A DNA stretch of 64,000 nt, taken from Prorocentrum cordatum. Taxonomy: Eukaryota; Sar; Dinophyceae; Prorocentrales; Prorocentraceae. This document shows, piece after piece, positions 3,905 through 63,690 of the stretch. The notes under the pieces are model-generated. The model was not told the origin of the DNA. It worked only from the letters and a program-made list of their open reading frames with translations, and did no database searches. The stretch lies in assembly GCA_963575745.1 (NCBI GenBank), contig CAUYUJ010015948.1, positions 1,753,630-1,817,629 of the forward strand, given 5' to 3'. Position 1 is the stretch's first letter. Each line of letters starts with the position of its first letter. A program made the position numbers and the translations under genes.

Positions 3905-4068
3905 TTCCCCAATGACCAACTGTGAGCTCCGAATCGTTTGTGGACGGTCCCGAGGCCCGCGGGGGGCTCCAGGATGCCGAGAGCAGGGAAAACAAATAAA
4001 TCAGCGCAAATGCAAACTTTCGGAATGCGCGGATGTCTTGGATCGACACTGGACCCCCCTCCCCTGGC
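3905..4068. repeat. Dispersed repeat R1, copy 2
   Basis: Second copy of the block at 306-470, same orientation. It differs by scattered substitutions and short indels, so the copies are not recent. Confidence 0.75.
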
Positions 4069-4284
4069 GCGCGGAACACACCAAGGGCAGCGCCTGGGGC
4101 GCCGCCAAAGGCGCCTAGACAAGATCCAGAAAATCCGCGTCGACCTTCTCCTTCGAAGACGACCTCGGGACCCGTGTGCGCGGGGCATGGGGTTATCCAG
4201 AAACACCTCCTGGGGGATCGACCTTCGCTGACCTCGGCCAGCAGTTGTTGATATGGATAGATGTGCCCCCAAGGACCGAATATA

Positions 4285-4345
4285 TCCATACCCACCGCCT
4301 GCAGAGGTCCCCAACGACAAGTCCCCCAGACGGCGGGAATCAATC
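4285..4345. repeat. Dispersed ~57-bp repeat R4, copy 1
   Basis: The core CCACCGCCTGC is followed by a CCCC-rich stretch and CCCTCAGGCGG-like sequence. Two better-conserved copies lie at 18305-18365 and 18545-18603. The rest of 4069-4840 shows no gene I can defend. Confidence 0.6.
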
Positions 4346-4840
4346 AATTCCCGCCTCGGAGATCGGTCCATGGCCACAGAAGTCCGCCGACGGCCGCCAA
4401 TCACGTGCGGGAGGCCGCCCTTCTGACCGCACGTGTGCAAGTTCGCCCGCACGGTCCCGCCAGCCGGTGCCAGACGATCTCCAGCACTCGAAGGTGAGCA
4501 TGACGCTCATGGGTCGGGTGGGGCACCTGGGCTCTGCCATCCTTGAAGGCTGTGATCGTGAAGGTTGGGAGGGCAAACCTTCTGGTCTAAGAGCCAATTG
4601 CAAGGACCTTCACTGGCACATGCATGGGTCGATGGCATGTGTATTCCGAATACCCTGTGGCAAACGCCTCTGCTTAAAGCAGCTGTGCAGGACCAACGAC
4701 CGGCCATGGATGGGAGTGGTGCAGCATGGAGGAAGCGGGTCCTGGACTTGGCTCGCCGTTCGCAGGCCTCGGCGGCCCTCCACGTGTCAAAAGAGAGCCC
4801 GGGATGTTGAGCTGGCCCTGTGGGGTCTGCAACCATCGTG

Positions 4841-4985
4841 CTGACACGTGAGGAGCGAACGAAGGCGTCTGTCTGACCACGCCGAGCCTTGGCCACGAAC
4901 GAGGACCCCGACGCACATCTGAGAAACGGCCCAAAACACCCGAACACCCCCTGAGTCCAAAGCAGTCCTTATTCCAGGCCCCCCC
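4841..4985 (-). mobile_element. Introner-like element, divergent copy
   Basis: Read on the minus strand, this is a diverged relative of the elements at 51771-51928 and 38078-38240. It shares the central block around TCGTGGCCAAGG and a conserved 3' edge, AG followed by CACGATGGTTGCA. The 5' GT seen in the other two copies is not evident. It may be a decayed copy or a non-intronic relative. Confidence 0.5.
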
Positions 4986-5900
4986 TCGCGGCGAGATGGC
5001 GTCGCTCTCGCCTCTCGGGGTGGGGGCACTCGCCACCTCGCATCGCCACCGCCTCTGGATCGGGTCCCCGGAGGCCCTCGGACGTCTCCGTGCGTGGGGC
5101 CTCCGGAGGCCCCCCGGGAGGCCTCAGGTGGGCCCAGCCTGATGGAGCAACGGGCCCCGACCTCAGAGCACGAGTGGGCACGACTTGCGGGAAGGCGAGG
5201 AAGTGAGCCTCTCTGGGCCTTGGTCGGACACGGGGCTGAGGAAGGAGGGGGCAGGGGAGGACGAGGAGGAACGAGAGAACTGGGAGGCGAGAAGCTGGGG
5301 AAGGGGAAGGGGGACTAGCAGGAGCGAGATGAGTATGGAGACGGAGGGCGGGAGAAAACGAGGAGGGGAGGAGGAAAGAGCATGGAGAGCAAAGAGGGCG
5401 GAAAATATCAGGACGGGAGCAAGGACGAGGCAGAGCACGACTGAGTGAGCTGGCAGAGGGAAGAAGGGTGGGGCAAGGGAAAGACAAATAGAAAGAAGGA
5501 AGGAAGCACGAGGGATACTTGAGGAATCACACAGAAGGAGGGAATCCAACTGCTGATTCCAGCTGTTCCTGCCTGCTTCCTTCATCAAAAGGAAGGAGGC
5601 GAAGAACACACAAAGAGACCCACGCGGAATGCCAAGACAGGCATGGGACGGATGACGATAAATCACAGCTTTGAGAAGGAGAGCCTCTCGAAGGCTTCTT
5701 GCCAACCCACTGGGGCGTACCCTTTTTTCCGTAGGACCCCTCGGGGAGCAAAACGCGCACGAGGTGTGCAATGGACCGACGTCGGGAATTCCTCGAACTG
5801 CCGTTCGGTTAAAACCTTGCTGTCGACCACGACGCCGCTTCGGCGCCACACTGGACTGTCAAGGATTGCTGCCTAATTGGCGAACTCTTCTGCCTGAATA
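4986..5900. other. Unassigned, purine-rich in the middle
   Basis: Positions 5180-5480 are strongly purine rich (GAGG and GAGAA runs) and yield Ser/Leu-rich or Glu-rich frames by composition. No motif or splice structure is visible. The stretch lies downstream of psbF on the minus strand and could include its 3' untranslated region. Confidence 0.35.
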
Positions 5901-6126
5901 AAAAGCCCGATGTCAGACTGCTGCCGGGTGTAGGAGCAAAGTCCCCCTTCGAACATGAACGCCACCGCCGGCGGCCACCTCAGCGCAAGAAATGCGCCCT
6001 GCTGAAGAGATTCTCAGCGTGGACAGTGCGCGGCGGAGGTTCGCCATGCATGCCCTCCCCGCCGATTCATGGCTGGCCGCGGGCCCAGCGACCCCGGGCC
6101 GAGCGCAAACTCCTCGGAGCGGCAAC

Positions 6127-6504
6127 TTAGCGCTGGATGAACTGCATGGAGCTGATGGCCCCGAGGAAGAAGACAGTGGGCACCGCCAGCATATGCACCG
6201 CCAGCCAGCGGAAGGTGAAGATGGGGTAGGCCACTGGAGTCCGTGCCGCCGCGATCTGCGGCTTCGGCTCCGCGCGGCGGGCCGTCCTGGCCTTCGAAGC
6301 CACGGCGGCAGCGTACCCGAGGCCGAGCCCGCCCAGGATGCAGGCGCCAAACGGAGCAGGCTCCGTGGAGGACGTGGGACGGCCCGCGCTGCCAGCGGCC
6401 GCGGGCGCCGTCGCCTGGGCCGAACGTCCGCGCACAGTCCCCGGCACGAATGCGCAGGCGCCAGTGGCGAGCGCGAGCAAGGCGGCGATGCGAGCAAGCA
6501 CCAT
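6127..6504 (-). CDS. psbF: Nuclear-encoded cytochrome b559 beta subunit (PsbF) with plastid leader
   Basis: PsbF is the small one-helix subunit that, with PsbE, binds the heme of cytochrome b559 in the photosystem II core. The 125-residue product ends in a near-canonical PsbF from about residue 92: [12 protein letters not shown], then [20 protein letters not shown]. His104, in RWLAVH, is the expected heme ligand. Family members are about 39-44 residues long, so ~90 residues are leader. That leader has a hydrophobic signal peptide (residues 1-18), a Phe-Val-Pro motif at 19-21 where plastid transit regions of red-lineage secondary plastids begin, and a second hydrophobic segment (about 51-70) followed by Arg and Lys, as in class I dinoflagellate leaders with a stop-transfer helix. 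The frame is uninterrupted and intronless, from ATG to TAA. Met105 replaces the usual Gly after the heme His. A spliced-leader-like relic lies about 55-75 bp upstream. Confidence 0.95.
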
Positions 6505-6542
6505 GGCTTCCGGGCCCTAAGCGCTGGGAGGCTGGAGGCGGC

Positions 6543-6580
6543 AGCTACGGCTTTGGCCAAGACACCAAAAATAGCTACGG
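6543..6580 (-). promoter_or_regulatory. Possible spliced-leader relic upstream of psbF
   Basis: On the minus strand, 6580-6565 reads CCGTAGCTATTTTTGG. This matches the 5' part of the dinoflagellate spliced leader (CCGTAGCCATTTTGG) apart from one C-to-T change and one extra T. The leader's 3' end (CTCAAG) is not well preserved. A second CCGTAGCT occurs at 6550-6543. Position and orientation fit a 5' untranslated region, but the match is short. Confidence 0.45.
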
Positions 6581-6775
6581 AACGACTCCCTGGGGCGCCT
6601 TGGGGCTCTTACTGGGGGCCCCTATTAGAGGCCCCCTTGCAGGGCTATTGGGCCCCTTTGGGGAAATGTTGGGGCCCTCTTGGACCGTCATGGGCTCTTG
6701 GGGCCCTCATCATCAGGGCCTCTGGAAGGTCAGGCGACTCGGCCCATGAGGCCCTCCAGGAAGCAGCTTAACTCG
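6581..6775. repeat. GGGGCCCTTGG-type periodic array
   Basis: Loose ~11-bp repeats of CTTGGGGCCC type run to about 6770. The consensus is the complement of the arrays at 1200, 31110 and 47640. It sits directly upstream of the psbF leader relic. Confidence 0.6.
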
Positions 6776-7153
6776 TCTTGGTATCCGATCAATAAACTAC
6801 AGCCGATCATAGGATCAACGAAAACTATCATTCAAGAAATCTGAGACAACTTCCTGACAATTCCTTCAAGCAAGCCTAGGACAAATACTTCCGTTGACGC
6901 TGGAGGGGCAAACGTGCGCAAGAAACTGGGCCAGCTTTCCAGCAAGTCGGTTAAGAAAGGCCTGCCCAGCATTTCGGGGGCGAGGTTGTTTGATCGGATG
7001 CTCGACTGTACTTCCGAGGGCACACTCCCCATCGATCCTGGAACTACGCCCACTTCCCGAACCGGCTCTCCCTTGACCCTGCGACCCTGCGGGAAACGGG
7101 CCCTGGACCCCAGAACCTTCCCCCGGCACCACCTCATCATCCTGAGCGATATA
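6776..7153. other. Unassigned stretch
   Basis: Lower-GC DNA with no tandem structure. Short frames are open on both strands, none with a motif I recognise. Confidence 0.4.
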
Positions 7154-7358
7154 CTCGGGCCGGGCGAAAGGGGGGGATAGCAAAGGGGAGGGGGTGAAAA
7201 TCAGCTCACGTAGCTGATTTTCCGGCGCCTCCCGGCACCTGCGCCGGGAGGCGCCCATGTATCGAGGAATGGGCCCGGCGTCGGGGCCGAAACCAGCTGC
7301 ATTCAGCAGATTTCGTACCCCCCCCCTCTCCCTATCCCCCCCTTTCGTTCGGCCCGAG
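7154..7358. mobile_element. 205-bp fold-back (MITE-like) element with nested hairpins
   Basis: The outer ~55 bp (from 7154) and the last ~55 bp (to 7358) are imperfect inverted copies: CTCGGGCCGGGCGAAAGG pairs with a right arm reading CCTTTCGTTCGGCCCGAG. Inside are two perfect stems: GAAAATCAGCT...AGCTGATTTTC (7196-7222, 5-nt loop) and GGCGCCTCCCGGC...GCCGGGAGGCGCC (7224-7255, 6-nt loop). There is no coding capacity. A short non-autonomous transposon or a structured RNA locus are the likeliest explanations. Confidence 0.8.
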
Positions 7359-7522
7359 CTACCCGGGGAGACCCGCCTCCCGCCGACCTCCGCGCAAGAC
7401 CTCTGCCAGAGCCCCCCGAAACTCCGCCGACGCCCCACGCGGCCGCGCCCGAGCGAGCGACCGCGACCTCCGCGCGGCCGCACACGGGCCGACACTTCGG
7501 CCGCCGAGCGGGGCCGTCTGTC
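7359..7522. other. GC-rich spacer between two fold-back elements
   Basis: High-GC DNA without visible repeats or a defensible gene. Confidence 0.4.
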
Positions 7523-23861: not shown

Positions 23862-24046
23862 TCTATCCTCCTCCTCTTCCTCCTCCTCCTCCTCCTCCTC
23901 CTGCTCTTCCTCCTCATCCTCCTCCCCCTGCTCCTGAACCTCCCTCCACCTTCTCCTCCTCCTCCTCCTCCTCCACAACCTTCTCCTCCTTCTCTTCTCC
24001 TCCTCCTCCTCCTCCTCCTCCTCCTCCTCCTCCTCCACGTCCCCCT
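23862..24046. repeat. CTC triplet tract
   Basis: (CTC)n with TTC and ACC interruptions, giving only artefact frames. Confidence 0.95.
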
Positions 24047-24119
24047 CATTCTCCATTCTTTGGACCGCATGCCGCCTTCGCTGCTCCGGCGCTGGTTGTC
24101 CCCGGCGGACGGGGGAACG

Positions 24120-24590
24120 CGCCCAAGACTCCATAAATGGTTTGGGGGCCAGCACCGACGACCTGCGTGCCGCGTGGGCTGCGGCGTCGGGGCCGCCCGT
24201 TTTCGAAGTCTGGAGTGGGTCTTCTGACAGTCTGCCAGCGACTCAGCGAGCCCTACGGCCCTACAGCCTGCCGCAGGCACGTCATGCCCGGTGGTCGCTG
24301 GATGCCCGGAGGGGGTGGGAGGTGGCTCAGCGAGAGGTCAGGATGAGGGGGCGGGCCAGCGCGTTGCGCCCATTCCCCTGTTGCTCCTGTCTCCGGCTCG
24401 CGTCTTTCTGGAGAAGATCGACAATGACGAGCAGCGCAGGAGGGAGGATATCAAGAACCAATCAAGATCGACTGGCCAAGGGCGAGGCGTGGTGGGCAAC
24501 GCAGGGAGGAGATCACTGAGCAGCACCAAAACCTTTTGCCACTGCCCGCCTGTCTCGCATGCGATGATCCTTCTGGAACGATCATAGGAG
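24120..24590 (+). other. Possible plus-strand coding fragment, unrecognised
   Basis: Two plus frames have normal composition: GASTDDLRAAWAAASGPPVF (from 24144) and RVFLEKIDNDEQRRREDIKN (about 24402). They are in different registers, so a splice or frameshift would be needed. No family is recognised. Confidence 0.25.
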
Positions 24591-24629
24591 GCAGAGTCCG
24601 TCATTCAGCACGGGTCCCCCAAACAAGGC

Positions 24630-25573
24630 TCAGAGCGAGGCCCGAATACGATGAAGTGCGCGAGGTCCCAGAGGGTGAGCCAGGCCAGGGTCATTCAACG
24701 CCACATCCTGCACACCATCCCAAGCCAGCACGAACATGCACACCCACGTGAGCCAGCCCCCATGACAAACCAAACAACGTTGAGAGGATCGAGCGAGACG
24801 CCGAACATGAAGGAGACGGTGCCACCGTGAGACAGGAACACGAAGATGAACGTAAGAGGGTAGCTGCAGAACTCGGCCAGCATCACCACAATGTCGATGT
24901 CATAGTATGCCCTCTGCGTCCTTGCTACTGCACGTCGTCGTGGAGGCCTTCTCTAAGCCCGTCTCGTCTAGCATTGCGGCGCCCCGCAAGGCCATGAAAC
25001 CGCCCTCTGACAGTGAGGGCGCAGGTGTCGTACATGGACACGTACAGGATGTTGACAAAGTCGCAAGCGGTCTTGCAAGTGACCGAATTATTGGATTCCA
25101 CCTCGCTGGACATGTTGCCCAACAGGTTCAGAAAGTACTTGAGGACGAAAGAGTCGATGGCCTCCAGCTCGTCCAGCTTGTCAGCGATGCCCCAGAGACT
25201 CTTGAAGGTCATCTCGTCCACGGCGGGGATCTTCGCGAGTTCCGCCAGAGACTCCTCGTCTAGCGGGGGCGCCTTGGCTCTGTACAGGCCCTTCGACTGA
25301 GACTTGAAGAGGTCCGTCATGGCCTCGACGTCCTTCTCCTCGTACCCCGCGCCGCCACCGTGGAGGCCCGTGGAGGTGAGAGGGGAAGGAGCCACCCCAA
25401 GGCACCGACGAACATCAGAGTTTGTGCCGCGCGCCACCGCTAACGACGCGCCAGTCCCATCCGCCCCGCCGCACGCCCCGAAAGAGACCCGACGCGAGGG
25501 CGGCGCCACTGAGCCAGACAGGCTGAAACAGGGCTCTCGCCCCGTTTGGACCCCGATCGAAGTCCAAGCGGGG
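24630..25573 (-). pseudogene. Retrocopied membrane-protein gene, probably decayed
   Basis: Minus-strand coding sense runs through this stretch without a convincing intron. The first part (open from the leader relics; first Met at 25320) has a soluble helical region (MTDLFKSQSKGLYRA, FKSLWGIADKLDELEAIDSF, CDFVNILYVSMYDTC). Coding sense then shifts frame near 24997 (FMALRGAAMLDETG), near 24905 (YYDIDIVVMLAEF, then hydrophobic YPLTFIFVFLSH and GVSLDPLNVVWFVMG) and near 24763 (WLTWVCMFVLAWDGVQDVAL), ending at TGA 24632-24630. The hydrophobic segments suggest a multi-pass membrane protein of unknown family. Loss of introns, three apparent indels and tandem spliced-leader relics at the 5' end fit an mRNA-derived copy that has decayed. 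Short introns or assembly indels are alternatives. Confidence 0.6.
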
Positions 25574-25603
25574 CTTGAGCCAACATGGCTTGAGACAATA
25601 TGG
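25574..25603 (-). repeat. Two tandem relict dinoflagellate spliced leaders
   Basis: Read on the minus strand, 25603-25589 is CCATATTGTCTCAAG and 25588-25574 is CCATGTTGGCTCAAG. They are adjacent with no gap. The conserved 3' part of the dinoflagellate trans-spliced leader is CCATTTTGGCTCAAG, so the copies match at 13 and 14 of 15 positions. Tandem cores cut at the internal AG are expected when an mRNA is retroposed, trans-spliced again at the relic and retroposed again. Coding sense follows on the same strand. Confidence 0.85.
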
Positions 25604-25659
25604 CTTGGCCTCCTCCTCCTCCTCCTCCTCCTCGTCCTCCTCATCATAGAACACAAGCA

Positions 25660-26330
25660 TTGATCTAGGAGCCCAGGAGCCTCCTGAATTACTCACAGAC
25701 CTCCGCAAGCCTCCGAACTCCATCTTCCTCTCATCCCCTGCTTCCTCCCTCCTCGTCATTCGAGTCATCTCTTCTCATCACCCCCCCCTCATACTGATGC
25801 TTCTCCCTCCTGAGGCAGGAGGAGGAGGGTGATCGAGAAGGACGGCGAGGGGGGTAGGAGAAGCAGGAGGAGAGAGAAGCACGAGGACGAACGAGGGAGG
25901 AGGGGAAAAAGGAGAGGGGGGATACTGCTGATGAAGGTGAGGAAGGGGGGTGCGGGGCACGAGGGGGGAGCACCTCTCCCCCCTCCGTCGTCCAGGCATG
26001 CGGGGGCCAAACACCTGGGCCCTCCTTCATATCCCCCTCCCAGGAGGAGCCTTCCTCTGCTGAACCTTCGGGAACCGCCCTGCTTTTCGTCTGTTTTTCA
26101 ACCCAGAATTGCGCACCTCTGCAACGACTGTGCCACCCGATTGCACCAAGGAAGCCCAGAGCCACGCGAAAACCAACCTGCAATAGGCGAGTCCGCACGC
26201 GACACCTTCGCTTGTGCAGCAAAGCGCTGATAAAATCAGAGGGGGAAGACGAAGAAGAGGAGGAAGACAGAGAGGGGGTGAGTGGGCAGCGTGTTAGCCG
26301 AAATCGGCAGTCCCGCGCACCACGCGCTTC
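25660..26330. other. Unassigned, purine/pyrimidine-biased
   Basis: Positions 25780-25990 are purine rich on the plus strand. The long Ser/Pro-rich minus frame over this region follows from composition. No gene is supported. Confidence 0.35.
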
Positions 26331-39979: not shown

Positions 39980-40033
<54 letters not shown>

Positions 40034-40034
40034 A

Positions 40035-40068
<34 letters not shown>

Positions 40069-40168
40069 GGCTGACGATGATGATGATGATGACGATTATG
40101 ATGGTGTCGATGATTTTGATGAATATGATGGTGATGATGGTAGTGATGATGATGGTGTCGCGATGATG

Positions 40169-40200
<32 letters not shown>

Positions 40201-40493
40201 GTTGTTGATGATGATGATGATGGTGATGAGGTGGTGATGATGGTGGTGCCCCGATGATGATGTTGATGATGCTGATGATGATGTTGCTGATGATGATAAT
40301 GGTGCCCCGATGATGATGATGCTGATGATCCTGATGATGTTGATGATGATGGGATGATGATGGGATGGTGATGGTGATGCCCATGACATGATGATGATGG
40401 TGTCCCGATGATGACGATGATGATAAGGTTGATGATTATGCTGTTGATGATGCTGGTGATGATGATGATGGTGGTGTCCCGATGATGGTGATG

Positions 40494-40524
<31 letters not shown>

Positions 40525-40917
40525 TAACGATGATGGTGTCCCGATGATGATGACGATGATGATGAGGCTGATGCTGAGGTGATGTTGATGATTTTCATGA
40601 TGGTGGCCCGATGGTGGTAATGGTGATGATGCGGCTGTTGATGATGATGATGATGATGATGATGACGATAGTGCCCCGATGATGACGATAATGGTGATGA
40701 TGATGATGATGATGCTGGTGGCGTTGATGACTGTGTCCCAAGGATGATGTTGATGATGATGATGCTGTTGATGATGATGGTGTCCCGATGGTGATGATGT
40801 CGATGAAAGTTTCATGACGATGATGAAGTGATGATGATGGTGATGTTCCGATAACAATGATGATGGTGTTCCGGTGATGATGATGTTGACGATGATGGTG
40901 ACTATGACGGTGTCCCA

Positions 40918-40950
<33 letters not shown>

Positions 40951-41010
40951 GTGGTGCTGATGATGATGTTGATGATGATGGTGATGAGGTGATGATGATG
41001 ACGGTGTCCC

Positions 41011-41098
<88 letters not shown>

Positions 41099-41140
41099 TT
41101 TGTGACGCTGGTGGCGGTGATGTTGATGATGATGATGACG
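39979..41140. repeat. GAT/ATG triplet tract, ~1.15 kb
   Basis: (GAT)n interrupted by GGTGTCCCGATG words that recur through the tract. Asp, Met and His/Ile frames are artefacts. Confidence 0.97.
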
Positions 41141-45533: not shown

Positions 45534-46334
45534 TCAGCGCCTGGGGCGTTTCCCGGTCCAGTTGTCGGTGTACCCAGAGCTGCGTGCCTGGCCCTCTCCG
45601 CGTCCTTCACCCTTGGTTACCCCCCTTTTCTTCTGGAACTCCTGGTACAGGGCGTTCTCCCGTTCCCAGTCCATGTAGACGCCAGTGTTCCGGGCCCACG
45701 TTTCCACGTGATGGTGGTTATTGGCCATGTCCTCGAGAAACTGATCGTTTATCTTAGGCTGCCAGCAAGTCGGGTCGAACTTGACTTGGTCCTTGGACTT
45801 GCCCTTGTCCTGCTCCTGACGCCTATGCCCGCATCACAAGTGCCAGGCTGCGGTGAAGTGGTAGCCTCCCTTGGCCTTCAGCCTCTTCAGGTGAATGGCC
45901 GCCGTCTCGTGTGGGCGTCGTGGCCACCTGACACGGCGGGCTTCCCAGGGGCGGATGGGATCAGGATAGCGGCGATCGTCCTTGTGCTGAAGGTTGCGTC
46001 GATCGTTCTGCTGGTGCCAAAGGGCCCACCCTATGCCCCTGTCACGATCGCGGTCCTGGTCGCGGTTGCGCTCTCTGACTCGGTCCCGATCGCAAGTGCC
46101 TTGTTGGTGCCAAGGGGCCCACCCTACGCCCCTGTCCCGATCGCGGTCCCGGTCGTGGTCGCGCTCACTGGCTCGGGCCCGATCGCTGGAATCTCTTGAC
46201 GAGCGCCGCACTGCACTGTCATACGGTTCCCAGGGGGCTTGAACCCACGACCTGCCGCGCTCGCGCCCGTGTTCGTGCGAGGGGTGGGGGTTGGGTGCCG
46301 GCATCCATGACACACACACACACGCCAATAACAA
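45534..46334 (-). pseudogene. RD-repeat protein gene with one in-frame TGA
   Basis: One minus frame runs for 267 codons, interrupted only by TGA at 45836-45834. Upstream: RSWVQAPWEPYDS, then ERDHDRDRDRDRGVGWAPWH, then NRDQDRDRDRGIGWALWHQQ, then RPHETAAIHLKRLKAKGGYH. Downstream: KFDPTCWQPKINDQFLEDMA, ETWARNTGVYMDWERENALY, then a Gly/Arg-rich end and TGA. The motif G-x-G-W-A-x-W-H-Q-Q recurs after Arg-Asp runs, as in RD-type RNA-binding or splicing proteins; the exact family is not recognised. Both halves have normal composition and share frame, so the TGA looks like a point nonsense change, a selenocysteine codon or an unrecognised intron edge. Confidence 0.5.
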
Positions 46335-52075: not shown

Positions 52076-52124
52076 GGCGGCGACGGCGGCGCCAGGAGAC
52101 CGACGATACGACGACGGCGAAAGG

Positions 52125-52695
<571 letters not shown>

Positions 52696-54050
52696 TGCTG
52701 CTGCTGATGATGATCAGGAGGAGGAGGATGAGGAGGGGGATTAGGAGCAGGAGGAGGACGAGGGGGATGATCGAAGGTCGAGGAAGAGAATGGTTAGGAG
52801 GATTAAGTAAAAGAAGAAGGCCACAAAGCTACTCTATCAAGGTTCGAAGCGGCAATAAAAGATGGAGGGTCGAGACGGACCCTGGCAGAGGAGGAGGAGA
52901 AGGAGCCTTGTGTAGCAACACGGACTTTTATAGAGTATCGAGGGAAACCGAAGAGGAGGATGAGGAGGTGACGAGGACAGAGGACCGAGGTTGCTTGCAT
53001 CGGGGATCGAAGATGTGTAGGGAGGATGGTCGAAGATGGAACACCGGGGATAAATGCGGAGGAGGAGGAGGCGTATCGAGGCAGAGAACGAGGATCTAAT
53101 CAGGAAGTAGAAATCAAGTATCGTCTTTCGAGGTCCAAGAACCCTTGTTCAGGAAGAGAAAGAGGTGAAACGAGCCCAGGATGGGAGAAGAATCGACCAT
53201 CGTGGATCTAAGCTCCTAAACGCTGCCAGTCGGACCCGAGAGGCCTCCTGTGGCACCGGGGACCTCTGGAGAGCCCCAGGGACATTCTCCCATCCCCAAG
53301 TGTTCCTCGTTCTGCCCCAGTTCTTCAACACACTTCTCCAGCTCGTGGGCAAGTCTGCGCCCGTCTACTGAAGCGTCATTCCAATCAATCCTCCCCTCTC
53401 CCCTGCTCCCGATGAGTCCTCTGCTCATTGTTCATTGCCCCCGTCGTCCTTCACCTCTTCATTCTCCTGGTCGTGATGATTCCAGCTGCTTCTGTAGCCC
53501 CCGACCCCTCTCCCCACGCATCCACGTTCTCCTCGTCCCGTCCACCTCCCACAGAATATCCCGACGTAGCTCTTCTCCGTCCACCATCTACGGCTTATGC
53601 TCCTGATCATCCCCTGATCACAAATCCTCATCATCTTCCTCCTCCTCCTCCTCCTCCCCCGTCTCCTCCTTCCCATCCGTTTTCGCGTTGCTTTCTCCTC
53701 CTCCTCCTCCTTCTCCTTCTACCCACCATCATCATAGCCGTTCCCTGTTGTCACTGTCTCATTCCCGCCATCGTCGTATACAAACACTGTCATCACGACT
53801 ACCAGCGCCATCGCCAGGGTCAGCATCTCCATCCTCCTCCTGTCCCTCATCCTCCTCCGCCGCATCCCCCTTTTCCCCCTCTTCCACTCCGTCCGCATCA
53901 GAATCCTCCCTCCTCCCCTCTCGCCCCTGTTCCGCTCCTCCCGCGTGCGTCCTCAAAGCGGCCGCTGAACCTGCCTGTAATGAGAATGTTGAGTCCGATG
54001 CCACATAACAAGACCAGCTTGGGCTTGGGCGTCGCTTGAGAGACCATAAA
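52696..54050. other. Unassigned, purine-rich then pyrimidine-rich
   Basis: GAGGAGGA-rich DNA to about 53100 and CTCCTC-rich DNA at 53635-53730 and 53820-53900. Ser/Pro frames follow from composition. No gene is supported. Confidence 0.4.
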
Positions 54051-61161: not shown

Positions 61162-61261
61162 NNNNNNNNNNNNNNNNNNNNNNNNNNNNNNNNNNNNNNN
61201 NNNNNNNNNNNNNNNNNNNNNNNNNNNNNNNNNNNNNNNNNNNNNNNNNNNNNNNNNNNNN
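61162..61261. other. Assembly gap, 100 N
   Basis: Exactly 100 unknown bases, the conventional length for a gap of unknown size. It separates a modular-repeat body from a CTC tract (61262-61306), so the true gap may be a long triplet tract. Confidence 0.99.
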
Positions 61262-62323: not shown

Positions 62324-63447
62324 GATGCCCTCCTCGCTTTGGCGGGGCCCCGCTGGAAGGGGGGAGGGCTACGAAACCTGGCGAAGAGTAATGCTTTCCG
62401 CGACCCTCCTCGCTCAGGCGGGGCCTCCCTGGAGGGGTGGGAGGGGCACGAAACCATGTAAATAGTATGGTTTTCCGGATACCCTCCTCGCTCAGGCGGG
62501 GCCTCCCTGGAGGTGTGGGAGGGGCACGAAACCATGTAAATAGTATGGTTTTGCCTCCCTGGAGAGGTGGGATGGGGCACGAAACCATGTAAATAGTATG
62601 GTTTTCGGATACCCTCCTCGCTCAGGCGGGGCCTCCCTGCAGGGGTGGGAGGGGCACGAAACCATGTAAATAGTATGGTTTTCGGATACCCTCCTCGCTC
62701 AGGCGGGGCCTCCCTGGAGGGTGGGAGGGGCACGAAACCATGTAAATAGTATGGTTTTCCGATACCCTCCTCGCTCAGGCGGGGCCTCCCTGGAGGGGTG
62801 GGAGGGGCACGAAACCATGTAAATAGTATGGTTTTCCGATACCCTCCTCGCTCAGGCGGGGCCTCCCTGGAGGGGTGGGAGGGGCACGAAACCATGTAAA
62901 TAGTATGGTTTTCCGATACCCTCCTCGCTCAGGCGGGGCCTCCCTGGAGGGGTGGGAGGGGCACGAAACCATGTAAATAGTATGGTATTCCGATACCCTC
63001 CTCGCTCAGGCGGGGCCTCCCTGGAGGGGTGGGAGGGGCACGAAACCATGTAAATAGTATGGTATTCCGATACCCTCCTCGCTCAGGCGGGGCCTCCCTG
63101 GAGGGGTGGGAGGGGCACGAAACCATGTAAATAGTATGGTTTTCGGATACCCTCCTCGCTCAGGCGGGGCCTCCCTGGAGGGGTGGGAGGGGCACGAAAC
63201 CATGTAAATAGTATGGTATTCCGATACCCTCCTCGCTCAGGCGGGGCCTCCCTGGAGGTGTGGGAGGGGCACGAAACCATGTAAATAGTATGGTTTTCGG
63301 ATACCCTCCTCGCTCAGGCGGGGCCTCCCTGGAGGGTGGGAGGGGCACGAAACCATGTAAATAGTATGGTTTTCGGATACCCTCCTCGCTCAGGCGGGGC
63401 CTCCCTGGAGGTGTGGGAGGGGCACGAAACAATGTAAATAGTATGGC
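62324..63447. repeat. 77-bp satellite array, about 15 units
   Basis: Units contain CCCTCCTCGCTCAGGCGGGG, CCTCCCTGGAGGGGTGGGAG and CACGAAACCATGTAAATAGT. The first unit is diverged and the fourth has lost about 27 bp (near 62547). Inner units differ mainly at TTTTCC/TATTCC/TTTTCGG junctions. The 65-codon frames recurring every 77 bp are by-products of one repeat sequence. Confidence 0.97.
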
Positions 63448-63690
63448 TTTCAGTATGGAGTGGTATGGAATGGTATGGTAGGTATACTATGGTACGGTAT
63501 GGTATGATATGGTATGGTATGAAACTGGAGGTATGGTATGGTATGGTACGGTGTGGCATTGGTGTGATATGGTATGGTATGCTATGGTACGCCATGGTAT
63601 GGTATGGTACGGTATGGTACGTATGGTGTGGTATGGTATGGTATGGTATGGTATGTGTGGTAGGAACTATGGTATAGTATGGTGTGTGGT
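63448..63690. repeat. TATGG pentanucleotide tract
   Basis: (TATGG)n with many short variants (TACGG, TATGA) continues directly from the satellite array. Confidence 0.95.

Follow-up and report, generated by a model that had tools for sequence, protein, structure and literature searches.

The window analysed here, a stretch of 64,000 nucleotides from the dinoflagellate Prorocentrum cordatum with a G+C content of 59.3%, carries two adjacent 15-mers on its minus strand, which the first-pass annotation had read as tandem relicts of the spliced leader. Both are present where they were claimed to be, one and two mismatches away from the relict reference 15-mer, CCATTTTGGCTCAAG. The relicts and the sequences that adjoin them are as follows.

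25589-25603, minus strand: outer (5') spliced-leader relict CCATATTGTCTCAAG, two mismatches to CCATTTTGGCTCAAG
25574-25588, minus strand: inner (3') spliced-leader relict CCATGTTGGCTCAAG, one mismatch to CCATTTTGGCTCAAG
25604-25610, minus strand: GGCCAAG, readable as a third, worn relict (GGCTCAAG minus one base) or as the start of a full leader, CCGTAG in worn form, two readings that are indistinguishable
25609-25642, minus strand: (GGA)n microsatellite, a tandem repeat (CCT on the plus strand) that abuts the 5' end of the leader array
25540-25573, minus strand: imperfect inverted repeat CCCCGCTTGGAC...GTCCAAACGGGG, directly after the relicts and within a predicted hairpin

The window was scanned on both strands with a limit of four mismatches to the reference. 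All remaining matches, on either strand, lie at that limit, and none has three mismatches or fewer. A loose search for the single motif yields at least two matches in 22 of 100 shuffles, so that a match of this kind is weak evidence by itself. The two relicts, however, abut exactly and in register, with a period of 15, and an order-3 Markov model predicts 3.6e-9 in-register pairs per window with at most three mismatches in total. The pair is not a product of chance. The outer relict is preceded by GGCCAAG, without an exact CCGTAG, and a GGA run of 24 nt ends 6 nt before it. The predicted fold of 25520-25610 on the minus strand has a z-score of -2.6, with 3 of 200 shuffles equally stable. Rfam searches of the window and of 12 sampled loci gave no match, neither to an SL RNA gene nor to any other known structured RNA.

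The host genome (4,128,499,153 bp, or 4.13 Gb, in 21,875 contigs) contains the degenerate motif CCATNTTGKCTCAAG 12,591 times on one strand and 12,595 times on the other, 25,186 matches altogether, as opposed to 7 and 1, that is 8, for the same pattern read backwards. This excess identifies the genome as that of a leader-using dinoflagellate. Together, the in-register pair and the excess over the reversed control bear out the identification of the motifs as dinoflagellate spliced-leader relicts.

We sampled the first 100 listed motif matches in contig order, which is not a random sample; they fall into 94 places, or 93 after one pair with identical flanks was merged. An exact CCGTAG precedes the relict in 55 of the 93 places, and at a further 18 it does so with a single mismatch. 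In-register arrays of at least two units, with at most three mismatches allowed per added unit, occur at 15 of the 93 places, L031 included, and their period is exactly 15, the length of the piece that splicing at CCGTAG leaves behind. Past the array, the next 15-mer is within five mismatches of the leader at 8 of 93 places, compared with about 0.09% of random 15-mers, which argues that worn inner relicts are commoner than our counts. Arrays may also have been shortened where a new leader was spliced at an inner AG, in which case the number of relicts would be a lower bound for the number of rounds. Related 5' ends with differing numbers of relicts, as judged by eye, are seen in L034, L069 and L091, and again in L011, L012 and L051. 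L031 has relicts in both orientations at about 3990-4070, forming an odd palindromic array. We considered and rejected an ageing gradient from the outer to the inner relict: in the window it is the inner relict that has fewer mismatches, and the sampled arrays have no clear gradient.

On the minus strand below the relicts, the window contains the following features.

25012-25320, minus strand: coding-like block of 103 codons from the ATG at 25320, recognized by codon-position G+C and periodicity; no known family found
24914-25011, minus strand: candidate intron of 98 nt, GT...AG followed by AGG, frame-keeping, proposed from the loss of periodicity between the blocks
24760-24913, minus strand: second coding-like block, hydrophobic and in a different frame, recognized by periodicity and translation
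23866-24047, minus strand: (GGA)n array (TCC on the plus strand), a possible though weak 3' flank of a 1.56-kb insertion

Across 120 minus-strand codons of 25025-25387, the first, second and third codon positions have a G+C of 0.54/0.37/0.86. The first-pass annotation had placed the relicts immediately 5' of coding sequence. A coding-like block does lie downstream, but its first in-frame ATG, at 25320, is 253 nt below the inner relict, outside the 50-100 nt given as usual for dinoflagellate 5' UTRs (PMC6050394), and codon periodicity is missing from the intervening bases until it sets in near 25390-25410. Near 25000 the periodicity weakens, and at about 24930-24760 it is seen again in a different frame; from this pattern a short intron probably splits the block. 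The AGG after the acceptor is usual in P. cordatum, with a figure of 79.7% given in PMC10666404. Pfam returned no match for four stretches around the locus, nor for the joined reading of 156 amino acids, and a PDB search with the ORF of the window returned none at E-values up to 1. The joined reading had one match in PDB (E 0.085), which we took to be chance. Compared with the sampled loci, 24500-25800 has no homology beyond the leader and the microsatellite, except for one match of 52 bp (E 0.001). That the gene downstream has been recycled twice, as the first-pass annotation proposed, is plausible.

The 5' junction with a microsatellite is a recurrent feature of relict arrays in this genome. 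A perfect TCC/GGA run of at least 12 bp lies within 45 nt upstream of the array at 46 of the 93 sampled places, and within 40 nt downstream of the relict at 0 of 93; by comparison, random 45-mers contain such a run in 3.8% of cases when drawn from the 8-kb loci and in 1.8% when drawn from the window. In 20 loci of 8 kb, successive upstream bins of 45 nt contain such runs in 10, 7 and 5 of the 20, and the farther bins tested in 0-2, limiting the signal to the first 135 nt. Read on the leader strand, 32 of the 46 upstream tracts are TCC and 14 are GGA. At several sampled places other simple repeats (CAT, AT, CAGACA, TCG) abut the relicts. Places grouped by their first bases share the strand of the repeat in 22 of 22 pairs (permutation 0.00025), the grouping being partly by eye, and in 16 of 16 pairs (permutation 0.004) if only explicitly listed links are used. 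Since group members may differ entirely at the DNA level beyond about 65-110 nt, the shared strand does not simply reflect one insertion that was duplicated. One group (L029, L064, L084) adjoins repeats other than TCC/GGA.

For the window itself we considered the (GGA)n array at 23866-24047 as a 3' flank that might prove a microsatellite target, and set it aside as weak, since every tract over the next 4 kb downstream is GGA and (GGA)n in this orientation is common in this part of the window. At eight places with a 5' tract, the next tract has the same orientation in six and the opposite one in two. No poly(A) was seen near the presumed 3' end of the window insertion.

What follows the leader was read for 4 kb downstream at 20 places that are consecutive entries of the list (L029-L048). 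Long open frames are found after the leader in several of them, and at 10 of the 20 (L029, L032, L034, L037, L038, L039, L042, L043, L044 and L046) an APE-type, that is LINE-type, endonuclease domain lies 1.2-2.9 kb after the leader and on its strand. A single ORF of L029 matches both Exo_endo_phos and RVT_1 in Pfam, L032 matches Exo_endo_phos and L038 RVT_1, all above the curated cut-off; the Exo_endo_phos match in L037 is below the cut-off. In L034, L039, L042, L043, L044 and L046 the endonuclease was recognized by local comparison and iterated local profiles, hence by homology to the loci identified with Pfam, and the E-values of these profiles are inflated because they were built from the same loci. 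No endonuclease was found upstream or antisense in the 20 loci, and L039 has one RT fragment that is both upstream and antisense. Twenty further ORFs had no Pfam match. Outside the 20 places, L003, L095, L096 and L098 carry such domains, and L097 has none within 3.2 kb. L047 is different: the one open frame behind its relict (4028-7498) has the domains of a RuBisCO large chain (Pfam), making this a leader-tagged ordinary gene.

The ends of some LINEs could be defined. L023 (with L095 and L100) and L038 (with L099) are 91% identical over 5.7 kb, from the leader to the 3' end, and then differ, and their different flanks make them separate insertions. Both have (TCC)n in the same orientation at either end, and their 3' ends are proved by the comparison of copies. 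L037 is located between GGA tracts about 6.0 kb apart, with GGA tracts also inside near 2.9 kb, and L029 is flanked by AT tracts at a distance of 5.2 kb; in both elements the 3' end is deduced from the repeat alone. The TCC/GGA junction is present at 7 of the 10 LINE places and at 3 of the 10 places without a LINE domain. L034 and L044, both LINE places, themselves carry tandem leaders, indicating that LINE cycles, like the recycling of genes, lengthen the arrays. Taken together, these data show LINEs in this genome acquiring the spliced leader and inserting into microsatellites, and make them likely agents of retroposition. We found no report of leader-headed LINEs or of relict-microsatellite junctions in dinoflagellates in the open-access literature searched, PMC11453091, PMC3942190 and PMC4640811 included, which is not proof of novelty.

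For the relicts in the window we favour, as the probable reading, the 5' end of an RNA-derived insertion beside (GGA)n, the product of two or more rounds, copied and integrated by LINE enzymes. A leader would have been trans-spliced onto an RNA, and the leader-bearing RNA copied back into the genome. The transcript of this copy would then have gained another leader at the AG within the first, which would have been trimmed from 22 to 15 nt, and the re-leadered RNA would have been copied back again, with the last insertion into or beside the (GGA)n microsatellite. Copying and integration would be the work of LINE enzymes acting on leader-capped RNA; LINE enzymes are the most likely agents because the (GGA)n junction is common to this locus and to leader-headed LINEs inside microsatellites. 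The coding-like block may have been part of the inserted RNA. We count against this reading that searches of the window gave no endonuclease or RT domain, that CCGTAG does not precede the outer relict, that poly(A) was not seen near the presumed 3' end, and that the coding block is 253 nt off and probably interrupted by an intron. The near-absence of homology between 24500-25800 and the sampled loci, the abundance of (GGA)n in this orientation around the locus and the lower frequency of the junction at places without a LINE domain also weigh against it. The first-pass annotation had concluded from the tandem arrangement that the mRNA was recycled at least twice. In-register tandem relicts are indeed taken in the literature as a sign of trans-splicing and retroposition in more than one round, but a leader array alone is no mark of a recycled gene, given that half of the 20 places followed downstream lead LINEs.

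The same observation lends weight to an unlikely but serious alternative, in which a decayed or 5'-only LINE, or another leader-tagged RNA, landed upstream of an unrelated gene, so that the coding block was never recycled. The distance of the block from the relicts and its likely intron fit this alternative. It is opposed by the outcome of searches with three local models, which gave 0 endonuclease or RT matches in the 64-kb window, and by the sequence past the relicts, which matches none of the 5' ends of the sampled LINEs.

It is improbable that a single relict was inserted once, in just one round of retroposition, and was then duplicated by slippage at the DNA level. There are just two copies, and the unit is short enough, but the two units share no departure from the consensus (one has A and the other G at position 5, and one unit alone is changed at position 9). 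This comparison is a weak test, since it involves two variable positions only. The period of exactly 15 in the sampled arrays, as the published mechanism predicts (PMC3229502), also argues against slippage.

We give little credence to the idea that the microsatellite is a splice signal, with (TCC)n acting as the pyrimidine tract when a leader is trans-spliced onto the retrocopy, and maintained by selection. The preponderance of TCC over GGA on the leader strand would fit such a role. The 14 tracts with purine GGA on that strand, the window locus among them, do not, and neither does the presence of the same repeat at the 3' end of the LINEs that were followed. Resemblance to the leader by chance, for which the two matches in shuffled sequence could be cited, is already close to refuted by the expectation for the in-register pair and the genome-wide excess of the motif over its reversed control.

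In its tandem relicts, the window locus is ordinary, since such relicts are already in print. Tandem relicts, shortened at the AG that follows nucleotide 7, have been read as repeated rounds (PMC3229502, PMC6050394, PMC12014239); 17 of 238 Alexandrium transcripts are reported as retroposed more than once (PMC6050394), and at least two relicts are given for about 5% of 6,544 retrogenes (PMC12014239). The locus resembles these DinoSL relict (DinoRL) retrogenes in having truncated relicts of 15 nt, in register and in tandem, 5' of an RNA-derived copy. It differs from them in that its 5' end abuts (GGA)n and in that the coding block is 253 nt off and has a probable intron; retrogenes with introns are on record (PMC6050394). 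A further difference is that in this genome the tag often heads a LINE. What makes the locus a variant is its microsatellite junction, which leader-headed LINEs share.

Non-LTR retrotransposons specific for microsatellites are known in the HERO and Togen families (Kojima and Fujiwara 2004, as cited in PMC4640811). They share with the elements described here the location of LINE-like elements inside simple repeats. However, the microsatellite examples named in that source encode a restriction-like endonuclease (PMC4640811), whereas the leader-headed elements start with a trans-spliced leader and their endonuclease matches the APE-type Exo_endo_phos. Target specificity is also described for some APE-type elements, in the R1 and Tx1 clades (PMC4640811). 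As the source of reverse transcriptase for dinoflagellate retrogenes, Ty1/copia LTR retrotransposons have been proposed (PMC6050394, PMC3942190); our junctions and the domains downstream of the leader instead favour non-LTR elements.

A 2018 review described the retroelement behind dinoflagellate retroposition as unknown and leaned to Ty1/copia (PMC6050394). A junction common to LINEs and to other leader-tagged insertions makes the question of the agent directly testable. We consider the chances evenly balanced that LINEs in this dinoflagellate receive the leader as mRNAs do, enter microsatellites with a strand preference that follows the type of element, and carry leader-capped host RNAs with them. 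The relicts would then mainly be scars of LINE cycles, and the long-sought machinery would be a LINE that carries the leader at its head and is directed to microsatellites, in place of an LTR element. If so, relict counts over-estimate the recycling of genes.

The rest of the window contains an N run at 61162-61261 (at least 50 from 61162; 100 N in the window in total) and long arrays of the GAT type at 39980-41138 (about 1.2 kb) and 52124-52714 (about 0.6 kb). A minus-strand open frame of 99 amino acids at 45537-45833 has high third-position G+C and is exon-like. At 62553-63451 lies a tandem repeat of 77 bp with 11.7 copies and 97% matches.
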